This document shows, piece by piece, positions 11,293 through 39,097 of a stretch of DNA of 44,034 nucleotides (positions are counted from its first letter, which is position 1; each line of letters opens with the position of its first letter). A program made the translations under genes and the position numbers. The stretch spans positions 1-44,034 of the forward strand of contig CANRCD010000015.1 of NCBI GenBank assembly GCA_947629005.1, in the 5' to 3' direction. This stretch comes from an uncultured Clostridia bacterium (GTDB lineage: Bacteria > Bacillota > Clostridia > UMGS1883). Under the pieces are notes generated by a model. That model was not told where the DNA came from. It saw only the letters and a program-made list of their open reading frames with translations, and made no database searches.

Positions 11293-11479
11293 GCGGCAGT
11301 ACAAAGCTTGCAGCCGCGAGCATTTTGTATCCGACGATATGAAGATGCGCATACGACCGCACAACAATTTTTGGAAAAAATTAGCCGCCGAAGGCTGCAC
11401 ACTCGCTAAAGGTTGGTAGCGAGCCGAAGCCGACGCGAGGACTGCTTATCGGCCCGAGCAGGCGACGCGAACGTGACCT

Positions 11480-11565
11480 TTTGCGAAAAAGGAGAAGCAG
11501 CGGAGCGAGCCGAACGACGACTTTTGAAAAAAGTCGTCGCAAGCGAAGCGACGCTTGCGACGACA
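11480..11565 (-). repeat. Structured interspersed repeat, copy 1 (three-armed hairpin element)
   Basis: Immediately 3' of tRNA-Pro on the minus strand. The arm at 11533-11539 (GTCGTCG on plus) can pair either with 11558-11564 or with 11515-11521, both CGACGAC. The first pairing extends through a CAAGCG/CGCTTG core to a 13-bp stem and is followed on the minus strand by TTTTTTC, making a terminator (11527-11564). The second gives an 11-bp stem (11515-11525 with 11529-11539) that hides the T run. An AGCGGAGCGAGCC segment flanks it. A second copy with different arm sequence but the same layout is at 35337-35404. The rest of the gene-free stretch 11293-11479 shows only small hairpins. Confidence 0.7.
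11527..11564 (-). terminator. Intrinsic terminator of tRNA-Pro
   Basis: Minus strand: a 13-bp perfect stem (11564-11552 with 11545-11533), 6-base loop, then a run of T. It begins two bases after the tRNA CCA end and is part of the three-armed repeat. Confidence 0.8.
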
Positions 11566-11641
11566 TGGTCCGAGTGGCGCGACTCGAACGCGCGGCCTCC
11601 ACATCCCAAATGTGGCGCCCTACCAGCTGGGCTACACCCGG
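11566..11641 (-). tRNA. tRNA-Pro (anticodon TGG)
   Basis: A 76-base cloverleaf on the minus strand: acceptor CCGGGTG/CACTCGG, D stem GCCC/GGGC, anticodon stem CCACA/TGTGG with loop TTTGGGA giving anticodon TGG, T stem GCGCG/CGCGC with TTCGAGT loop, discriminator A and an encoded CCA end. It has its own promoter and terminator. Confidence 0.97.
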
Positions 11642-34533: not shown

Positions 34534-35157
34534 ATGAAAAAACTTATCTGCGCTGCTTTGATACTCGCGCTTCTGCCTGTTACAGCCTTTGCCGCGGAGG
34601 ACAGCGCTGCAGCGGCGGAGAAACTTGGGCGGTACGGAATTATGACTGGAGGAGCGGACGGCGAGCTCAGACTTGGCGACAGCCTTACAAGGGCCGAGGC
34701 CGCGAAGCTGCTTTGCGCCGCAGGCCGTTTCGTCAATGAAACGGAGACAGACATCCCCGACGTGCCGAAAGAACATTGGGCGCGGCCTTATGTTCTCGCT
34801 GCCATCGGCCATGGCCTCATGGAGCTCCGTGAGGACGGCAACTTTAGTCCTGAAGCAGATGTTTCCAACGAGGAAATGGTAAAGATGCTGGTTATTTTGC
34901 TCGGTTGGCGAGAGGGCGCCGAGCAGCACGGCGGCTTCCCCGCAGGCTACACGAGCATTGCCGCGATTTTGGGTATTACTCAGGGGCTGAAGCTTAAACC
35001 CGGCGCGGCGGCAACGCGGGGCGACGCGGCTGTAATGCTTGCCAACGCCCTAGACGTGCCGGTCGAGGTAGCGGAGTTCGACGCCGAGCAGAATATCATG
35101 ACCCTCGCCCCGAGTGAAACCCTCCGTGAAATACTCAAAAATAGGGCGGGCGTCTGA
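34534..35157 (+). CDS. Secreted S-layer-homology (SLH) domain protein
   Basis: A 207-residue exported protein. Residues 1-21 are a signal peptide (MKKLICAALILALLPVTAFA). Two to three SLH-type units follow: LGRYGIMTGGADGELRLGDSLTRAEAAKLLC, then DVPKEHWARPYVLAAIGHGLM with FSPEADVSNEEMVKMLV, then a third weaker one with ATRGDAAVMLANAL. SLH repeats bind pyruvylated wall polymers. ATG at 34534 follows AAAGGAGG. It is 67 bases after the BlaR1-like gene with no obvious promoter between, only a GC-rich hairpin (near 34492-34510), so it may belong to the same regulon. Confidence 0.88.
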   Translation: MKKLICAALILALLPVTAFAAEDSAAAAEKLGRYGIMTGGADGELRLGDSLTRAEAAKLLCAAGRFVNETETDIPDVPKEHWARPYVLAAIGHGLMELREDGNFSPEADVSNEEMVKMLVILLGWREGAEQHGGFPAGYTSIAAILGITQGLKLKPGAAATRGDAAVMLANALDVPVEVAEFDAEQNIMTLAPSETLREILKNRAGV

Positions 35158-35182
35158 TTTTTGTGTAAAGAACAAAAATCAG
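35154..35182. repeat. Hairpin after the SLH gene, possible degraded copy of the structured repeat
   Basis: CTGATTTTTGT (35154-35164) and ACAAAAATCAG (35172-35182) form an 11-bp stem overlapping the SLH stop codon. The bases just after it, AAGCG A CGCTT then GTTCCGA (35186-35202), resemble the core and one arm of the three-armed repeat at 35337-35404. No T run follows, so termination is unsure. Confidence 0.5.
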
Positions 35183-35246
35183 GGTAAGCGACGCTTGTTC
35201 CGACGGTCTTATAGTACTTACGTCGCGGCTCGGGCGCACAAAAAAA

Positions 35247-36929
35247 TCACATCCCGAAGCTCGGGGCGCGATTTGGGTGCAGCGTCGTATTCGGGGCCCC
35301 CGCAAAGCTATAGGCTTTGTGGGGAAAAGGAGGAACAGCGGAGCGAGCCACGTTCCGATTTTCAAAAAGAAAATCGGAACAAGCGTAGCGAAGCTTGTTC
35401 CGATGTGGTGCGCCAGATGTTGCAAAACATGAACCACTCGGCCCGTCAGCGGCACCGCCGACGGCCTTTTCCACAAGCGACAGTTCAACCCTATTGTTGG
35501 CACCGCCCTTTCTATAATTCAACACAAGCACAAGCCTGTCGTCGTCATACAAATAGGCAGCGTTCAGCAACGTGTCTACGAGGAAAGCGCGGTACATCTC
35601 GTCGTTAATATTGCCGTCACGCAGACTCTCAAAAAAATAAACAATTTGATCACGCTCAATTTTCGGCTCCTTGACATTTTGCCGGGCGATCCCCTGCTCG
35701 ACGCGACCCTTTTCGTTCTCCAGCTCCACAAGGCGCGACTTCATGCTGGGCGTAACAATACCGTCCTCCATGGCGGCGAGCAAATTGTTTATTGACTTTT
35801 CAATGTCCTTTTTCCTTGCCTCCAAAGCGTCGAGGGCGCTATGATCCTGCTCGCGCTCTTGATACTCCATACACCCGTCGGCGACCTCATTTACAAAGTC
35901 GTCCGAATGTATCAGCTTCACCAGCTCGCCAACAACAAGCTCCTCAATCCAGCCCTTCGGGGCTCTTTCTTTTTTGCATTTATGAACCCGTCGGCCGTTG
36001 CAAGTGTAATAATTATACACCTCACCCGTCCGGCTCGTGCCACCGTCGCCGGTCATGGCCTCGCCGCAATGCCCGCAATATAACTTTGACGTCAGCAAAA
36101 AGGAGGTGTCGCGCTTTGCTGCTGGCGCCCTGTGGTGGCGAGCTAAAAGGGCTTGGCATTTTTCAAAAATATCTTTGTCAATCAAGGCGGGGATCACTCC
36201 TTCCTCGCGGATCAAGTCCTTATATGTGTAAATTCCTATATACTTCTCATTTTCTAAAATACGTCGCAGGCTCCCCTTGTTAAAAGGACCGCCCCGGCTC
36301 GTTTTGAAGCCATCAGCGTTAAGCCGATCGCAAATATCCTTTGCTCTCTCGCCGGCGGCATATTCCCGAAAAATTCGTTGCACGATCGGTCCCGTACCCG
36401 GATCGATCTCAAATTGACCGCCGGGACCCGTGCGCAGACCGAGCAACTTAACGCCGAGCGCCTTGTATTGCAGGGCGCTGTCATAATTTCCGCGCTGTAC
36501 GTTTTGGCTTAAGTTTTTACTGTAATACTCGGCGTACCCCTCCATGACAGCCTCTAAAATAATGCCCTCGTTCCCTTCGGGGATTGTTTCAGCGGCGTAA
36601 TACAGCCGGACACCGTTCTTTTTCAGCCTATACTTATAAGTTGCCGAGTCGTAACGGTTACGGGCGAAACGGTCCATTTTCCAGCATATAACCGCCTTGA
36701 AAATGCCGCGCTCGCTGTCGCGGATCATGCGCTGAAAATCCGGGCGCTTATCTGTCCGGCCGGTGAGGGCCTTGTCTGTATACTCTCCAACTATGGTGAA
36801 CCCCTTACTTTCGGCAAACTTCCGACATTCGCGAAGCTGGCCCTCTATGCTTTCCTCGCGCTGGCCGCTGGAGGAGTACCGAGCATAAATCACAGCCGGC
36901 GTGAAATATTGCGACGCTTGACTTTTCAT
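35247..36929 (-). CDS. Large serine recombinase (integrase)
   Basis: A 560-residue frame. Residues 12-160 are the resolvase catalytic domain with the nucleophile serine in YARYSSSGQREES (S19), DRPDFQRM-type substrate region and WKMDRFARN. The recombinase domain follows (ALGVKLLGLRTGPGG to LRRILENEKYIGIYTYKD), then a zinc ribbon (LYCGHCGEAMTG with C-x9-C at NYYTCNGRRVHKC) and a coiled coil (about 370-425). It integrates and excises the element. From about residue 504 on (SGAPHRNKLRYACSDF) the tail is encoded by the chromosomal repeat, so the true element-encoded protein may end differently in the circular form. The start overlaps the upstream gene by four bases after GGAGGGGG. Confidence 0.93.
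   Translation of the reverse strand: MKSQASQYFTPAVIYARYSSSGQREESIEGQLRECRKFAESKGFTIVGEYTDKALTGRTDKRPDFQRMIRDSERGIFKAVICWKMDRFARNRYDSATYKYRLKKNGVRLYYAAETIPEGNEGIILEAVMEGYAEYYSKNLSQNVQRGNYDSALQYKALGVKLLGLRTGPGGQFEIDPGTGPIVQRIFREYAAGERAKDICDRLNADGFKTSRGGPFNKGSLRRILENEKYIGIYTYKDLIREEGVIPALIDKDIFEKCQALLARHHRAPAAKRDTSFLLTSKLYCGHCGEAMTGDGGTSRTGEVYNYYTCNGRRVHKCKKERAPKGWIEELVVGELVKLIHSDDFVNEVADGCMEYQEREQDHSALDALEARKKDIEKSINNLLAAMEDGIVTPSMKSRLVELENEKGRVEQGIARQNVKEPKIERDQIVYFFESLRDGNINDEMYRAFLVDTLLNAAYLYDDDRLVLVLNYRKGGANNRVELSLVEKAVGGAADGPSGSCFATSGAPHRNKLRYACSDFLFENRNVARSAVPPFPHKAYSFAGAPNTTLHPNRAPSFGM
35337..35404 (-). repeat. Structured interspersed repeat, copy 2 (three-armed hairpin element)
   Basis: The middle arm ATCGGAAC (35373-35380) can pair with GTTCCGAT at 35397-35404 or at 35352-35359. 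The first pairing extends through the CAAGC/GCTTG core to a 12-bp stem (35373-35384 with 35393-35404), followed on the minus strand by TTTCTTTTT. The second is a perfect 12-bp stem (35352-35363 with 35369-35380) with an A5 loop. The core CAAGCGTAGCGAAGCTTG and the flank AGCGGAGCGAGCC match copy 1 at 11480-11565; the arms do not. It lies inside the reading frame of the recombinase tail. Confidence 0.7.
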
Positions 36930-38771: not shown

Positions 38772-39014
38772 ATGAATATGAAAATTTTTTACACTTTTGG
38801 GAGCGATGAGCGTTTCCCGTTCCAAGGCGGCTGGATAGAAGTTGAAGCCCGGAACATAAGACAGGCGCACGCTATATTCCGAGCTCACTACCCCGACCGA
38901 ACACAGGGTGTCCTAAATTGCTCGGACTACTACGACGAACAACAATTCATTTCCAGCGGCATGTCCATAACCGGCAATCGGGGCGCATTTTGCCATCAAA
39001 AACTCACAGCATAG
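38772..39014 (+). CDS. Small conserved element protein
   Basis: An 80-residue protein with a compact alpha/beta look: FYTFGSDERFPFQGGWIEVE, then ARNIRQAHAIFRAHYPDR and LNCSDYYDEQQF. Proteins with this FGxDxxFPFxGGW start occur, as far as I recall, in many clostridial phages and conjugative elements; no function is known. ATG at 38772 follows AAGGGAG. It ends just before a small hairpin (CGCCCC ACG GGGGCG near 39021-39035). Confidence 0.75.
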   Translation: MNMKIFYTFGSDERFPFQGGWIEVEARNIRQAHAIFRAHYPDRTQGVLNCSDYYDEQQFISSGMSITGNRGAFCHQKLTA

Positions 39015-39097
39015 CCGAAACGCCCCACGGGGGCGTCTGTCGGACTCGGCCCACCGACACTGACGAGGCAGGCCAAAAAAGGAAAGGAGGCAATCGA

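Follow-up and report, generated by a model that had tools for sequence, protein, structure and literature searches.

A palindromic repeat family that recurs after tRNA genes in gut Clostridia and probably carries an intrinsic terminator

Introduction

The streptococcal SPRITE is a small interspersed repeat with a terminator-like hairpin and a T-rich tract that is enriched near the 3' ends of genes (PMC3049150); it is AT-rich (28% GC), with AAAA/TTTT ends and an 18-bp stem (PMC3049150). The BOX elements of S. pneumoniae are modular interspersed repeats of 67-637 bp that are bounded by terminal inverted repeats and form secondary structure (PMC3049150). In Neisseria, a dispersed repeat has been put to use as a terminator, with paired DNA uptake sequences forming the hairpin (PMC2267715, PMC3049150), and stem-loop repeat families in general offer a comparison class (PMC2267715).

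Here we describe a repeat family whose closest described kinds are the pneumococcal SPRITE and BOX. The element appears to act like a SPRITE, and its composition and size differ from those published for SPRITE: the present element has about 50-60% GC, four arms and three covarying helices, and is found after tRNA CCA ends in Clostridia. Like BOX, it occurs in modular composites (about 130-760 bp); BOX, in contrast, is built of boxA, boxB and boxC modules and makes target duplications, whereas the composites studied here have other modules and no duplication was found among them. The Neisseria terminators consist of inverted pairs of 10-bp uptake signals, unlike the ~80-bp unit described here, for which no uptake role is known. 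REP/BIME/REPIN sequences and other bacterial MITEs are likewise palindromic, intergenic, multi-copy and non-coding, but here neither a RAYT nor another mobilising enzyme was identified, copies are linked to tRNA 3' ends and the arms change between subfamilies with their pairing kept. No fitting description of the family was found in the literature searched, mostly papers available without subscription, or in Rfam. Judged from sequence, the element is probably an intrinsic terminator within an imperfect palindrome of ~80 bp that has been copied from place to place in the chromosomes of Clostridia as a MITE-like module.

Results

Two copies of one element in the window

The window, a stretch of 44,034 nt from an uncultured Clostridia bacterium (GCA_947629005.1, contig CANRCD010000015.1), carries two copies of the element, both on the minus strand. 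Copy 1 (11486-11567; 82 nt; E 1.1e-21 against R1, the sequence-only family model described below) starts at the CCA end of a tRNA-Pro (TGG) gene (11566-11641, minus strand; found by ARAGORN and Rfam), and copy 2 (35324-35408; 85 nt; R1 E 7.3e-24) lies at the 3' end of a serine-recombinase ORF. There is also a degenerate third copy (35154-35205, minus strand; R1 E 0.04), in which arm 1 and hairpin 2·3 are recognisable and helix 1·2 is lost. The original prediction had described a shared core and flank, and both are exact in the window: the core CAAGCG(A/T)AGCGA(C/A)GCTTG at 11540-11557 and 35380-35397, the flank AGCGGAGCGAGCC at 11499-11511 and 35337-35349. Allowing three mismatches, the core gave five matches against a shuffle mean of 1.07; the flank alone, with two mismatches allowed, gave an unremarkable number.

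Read 5' to 3' on the minus strand, the element runs through arm 1, the core loop, arm 2, a T run, arm 3 and the flank. An arm repeated around the core had been proposed for each copy; the repeats are indeed perfect, and the end of the flank adds a fourth arm that pairs with arm 1. In copy 1, arm 1 (GTCGTCGCAAGCG, 11552-11564) and arm 2 (CGCTTGCGACGAC, 11533-11545) pair into the terminator hairpin (-24.5 kcal/mol), and behind it comes a T run (11527-11532) that falls mostly within the loop of helix 2·3, in which arm 3 (AAAAGTCGTCG, 11515-11525) pairs with 11529-11539; the arm 4 position, GCTGCTTCTCC (GCTGCTTC, 11491-11501), is partial, with 6 of 8 bases complementary to arm 1. Copy 2 has the same layout, with arm 1 (ATCGGAACAAGC, 35393-35404), arm 2 (GCTTGTTCCGAT, 35373-35384), the T run (TTTCTTTTT, 35364-35372) and arm 3 (GAAAATCGGAAC, 35352-35363, an inverted repeat of 35369-35380), and its arm 4 (GCTGTTCC, 35332-35339) is complete, being complementary to GGAACA(A)GC of arm 1. 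All of these arms and T runs are given on the minus strand.

As first suggested, hairpin 1·2 and its T run are scored as a putative minus-strand terminator in both copies, and a GC-rich hairpin followed by a T run is found in most copies of the family. The predicted folds of both strands of both copies (four tested) beat shuffled sequences (z -4.2 to -6.2). Hairpins 1·2 and 2·3 are mutually exclusive, and the minimum-energy fold of full-length copy 2 is the nested 2·3/1·4 form. At the gathering score, Rfam matched a tRNA and a hammerhead ribozyme in the window, and nothing at the element.

A large family in gut Clostridia

R1 was built on seven copies of the window genome and gave 43 matches (E<=0.1) in its 2.04 Mb, with E values down to 1e-24. 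Among seven congeners it gave 30, 39, 45, 62 and 105 matches in five and 2-3 in the remaining two; genomes from other genera of the family, order and class had 0-5. A pattern fixing arms 1 and 2 only, scanned over one genome per species of bacteria and archaea, matched at least 117 stretches. Outside the genus, only Clostridia-type genomes were found among the matches listed, and the titled records among them belong to Oscillospiraceae, Ruminococcaceae, Christensenellaceae, Anaerotruncus, Agathobaculum, Intestinimonas and unclassified gut genomes. One of the carriers is a cultured strain, Anaerotruncus colihominis DSM 17241. To judge by these matches, the two window copies are members of a large, previously undescribed Clostridia repeat family; that the family would be large, with members in gut Clostridia, had been proposed. 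Spread on phages or plasmids was considered and rejected: the exact pattern had no match in the 2.9 million viral contigs of IMG/VR, and blastn against phage and plasmid records gave none.

Most of the genomes were assembled from metagenomes, and contig ends often coincide with these repeats. We also observed the element inside the ~179-bp unit of a tandem array, at G000:C12:1-380 and G000:C1:41-124 (L029, L025); assembly contigs stop within or next to these repeats.

Three helices covary, and arm types are shared

Covariation was counted on alignments fitted to the sequence-only model, with 500 shuffles and slid alignments as controls. In helix 1·2, 89-90% of cells were paired and five pairs had changed on both sides; helices 2·3 and 1·4 jointly were 88% paired, with both-sided changes in 12-14 of 16 pairs. 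For 1·2 and for 2·3 with 1·4, the covariation score exceeded all 500 shuffles and all slid controls in all four counts, which upholds the claim that the arms covary. Helix 3·4 was paired in 65.7% of cells against 64.8% in shuffles and showed no excess, and a bidirectional terminator that would use 3·4 on the plus strand was ruled out on this ground. Because shuffles ignore relatedness, both-sided changes between standard pairs were also counted on FastTree trees, giving 14-22 for 2·3, 8-13 for 1·4, 4-15 for 1·2 and 1-2 for 3·4, counts that are approximate given alignments of ~80 nt.

The two kinds of helix are kept in different settings. Of the 15 distinct arm sets seen after tRNAs, 14 form a perfect helix 1·2, compared with 22 of the 54 dispersed ones, and helix 2·3 stands at 92% in both groups, so that dispersed copies keep 2·3 and often lose 1·2. 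In some dispersed copies arms 2 and 3 are entirely different and still pair. Copies without the third arm had been named as a finding that would refute the original prediction, and this was borne out in part: some copies do lack a matching third or first arm, but 2·3 is kept in most, even where 1·2 is gone. Individual arm types, among them GTCGTCGC and ATCGGAAC/GTCGGAGC, are found at many loci and in several species; the window copies therefore differ as old subfamilies and not through two fresh changes.

Palindromes are hot spots for templated mutation, and covariation could in principle arise with no structural selection at all if template switching at quasi-palindromes homogenised the arms of each copy, a mutational and neutral process. 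Arms 1-4 are indeed alike within a copy and different between copies. Such a process should homogenise 3·4 too, yet 3·4 covaries no more than shuffles do; the arm types are common to many loci and species and so mostly inherited; and perfect 1·2 is kept specifically after tRNAs, as selection on termination predicts. We consider this account rather unlikely.

Many copies directly follow tRNA genes

Ten of the 42 tRNA genes of the window genome have an R1 match on the same strand at most ~10 bases past the CCA end, where ~0.005 would be expected by chance (our own arithmetic). They are the genes for Pro (C15 and C1), Val (C1), Met (C16), Tyr (C2), Lys (C4), Cys (C11), Ala (C3), Glu (C3) and Arg (C5, weak). 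Depending on the model boundary, copies start at -3 to +2 relative to the CCA end. Among the matches listed outside the genus there were 95 copies, of which 52 stand behind a recognised tRNA and a further 11 behind a T-arm-like end; about a third are without a preceding tRNA. At least 14 tRNA isotypes precede copies.

Most tRNAs of the window genome are followed by ordinary, unrelated terminators, which likewise start right after the CCA. At tRNA-Pro (TGG), the window genome has the element family and genomes G002, G003 and G006 have different hairpins; the neighbouring gene of this locus is present in congeners, with no tRNA beside it there. Terminators are usually viewed as private to each gene. 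In this case a single family is found behind at least 14 tRNA isotypes across many gut Clostridia, and sister species have unrelated terminators behind one and the same tRNA. These facts suggest a turnover of terminators by copying.

The same facts might be read as a site-specific mobile element that targets tRNA gene 3' ends and carries a terminator with it. The insertion point is always next to the CCA (-3 to +2), the same tRNA has unrelated terminators in congeners, and an apparent tRNA 3' part (GGGTTCGAGTCCCGTCATCGGCTCC), possibly an attachment-site remnant, precedes the copy at G000:C21:3035-3079 (L053). The ordinary tRNA terminators, however, share the start after the CCA, so the position of the copies is explained by function alone; no integrase or transposase is linked to them; and no inverted-repeat end lay within 700 bp of the tRNA-linked copies, copy 1 included, where that length was available. 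Targeted insertion is thus a distinctly unlikely source of the tRNA linkage.

A second shared hairpin family, GGCGTCGGAGCAAAGCCTGTCTTTGCTCCGACGCTTTTTT and variants, was also seen after several tRNAs (L312, L321, L324, L331, L303, L307, L335, L339), and in some copies the sequence further downstream is also similar (GGCTTGCTCC...). A third terminator module that recurs after tRNAs has the form GCAGCG..CGCTGCAC..CGCG..GATTTTTT (L318, L340, L299).

The nested fold and termination

The pairing of arm 2 with either neighbour had led to the suggestion of an antiterminator-like switch, in which hairpins 1·2 (terminator) and 2·3 (antiterminator) would compete on the minus strand and set readthrough. 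The two hairpins do exclude each other, both covary, and full-length copy 2 folds best in the nested form. Known attenuators place the competing arm upstream. In both window copies, as in the aligned family, the T run precedes arm 3, which is therefore made too late to be present when termination is decided; the opposite strand has no T run after its 2'·1' hairpin. A regulatory switch is very unlikely for these reasons. It would also have to accommodate copies after many tRNA isotypes, where no gene would benefit, and dispersed copies that lose 1·2 yet keep 2·3.

That independent, ordinary terminators came to look alike by chance is hardly credible even with most window-genome tRNAs having unrelated ones, because long sequence outside the hairpin (core, flank, arm 4 and downstream modules) is shared at tens of loci per genome, with E values to 1e-24.

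Dispersed copies and inverted-repeat composites

By simple ORF calling, a gene on the same strand precedes 61 of the 87 dispersed copies; 29 lie between convergent and 13 between divergent genes. Many are part of composites that have a left module, GGGGCTGTAAAAAAC(T)... or GGGGCTGTAAAAAATGGCGCAGACC, with its reverse complement at the other end. Strict pairing of the 23-nt end gave two pairs only, so 13-nt ends (GGGGCTGTAAAAA, one mismatch) were used; these formed 19 inward pairs and 0 outward pairs. The 23-nt end is present in 8 of 8 genomes of the genus and in 0 of 32 others. As in a MITE, the element is short, non-coding and multi-copy; unlike a MITE, it showed no evident target-site duplication, with a single 6-bp case among the 19 pairs and the rest at about chance level.

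Two near-complete palindromes of 128-129 bp with GGGGC(T/C)GTAAAAA ends (L215:6993-7120, L229:7375-7503) were also noted and are possibly a minimal dispersed form. Downstream of the element, the hairpin modules CCCACAAAC..GTTTGTGGGG and CTCGCAAAAGGTTGGTAGC..GTGACCTTTTGCGA turn up repeatedly, in one orientation or the other (L145, L150, L161 and others), and the CTCGCAAAAGGTTGGTAGC..GTGACCTTTTGCGA module also flanks copy 1 (~11400-11490).

A model for the spread of the element

If the element is an intrinsic terminator carried by a MITE-like palindrome, hairpin 1·2 is predicted to stop tRNA transcripts and also to end some mRNAs, that of the recombinase at copy 2 possibly among them. The nested 2·3/1·4 fold would then have no role in regulating termination and would reflect the palindromic DNA repeat itself, 2·3 and 1·4 being kept either by a role of the folded strand in repeat copying or by template switching within the palindrome. 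Within the genus, the repeat would have proliferated as a passenger of the small composites bounded by GGGGCTGTAAAAA... terminal inverted repeats; copy number and inverted-repeat ends are what point to transposition. Since the tRNA-linked form is class-wide and the inverted-repeat-bounded form is restricted to the genus among the 40 relatives sampled, the former is probably older and the latter a later, genus-specific expansion.

A fuller version, possible rather than probable, would treat the element as a mobile terminator: the palindromic repeat would replace the terminators of different tRNAs across Clostridia by copying between loci, and would have been captured by inverted-repeat-bounded elements in one genus. 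Selection on a folded single DNA strand would keep 2·3 and 1·4, and selection on termination would keep 1·2 only after tRNAs. The family lends itself to testing whether a mobile DNA structure does a housekeeping job.

The recombinase reading frame and neighbouring features

The reading frame at copy 2 encodes a large serine recombinase (35247-36929, minus strand) with Resolvase, Recombinase and zinc-ribbon domains in Pfam. Its last ~50 codons read through copy 2, giving a C-terminal tail that includes HRNKLRYACSDF; reading frames that enter these repeats gain spurious tails, as here. This translation had been given correctly, and the wide occurrence proposed for it holds at the DNA level only, in the spread of the motif in Clostridia: no Pfam family matched HRNKLRYACSDF, and the string was not found in the literature searched. 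Just downstream of copy 2, a stretch (~35235-35285, minus strand) resembles the GCAGCG..CGCTGCAC module. Further along the window, 39013-39077 on the plus strand is a full-length match to the type II hammerhead ribozyme, at 45.5 bits against a gathering score of 37.
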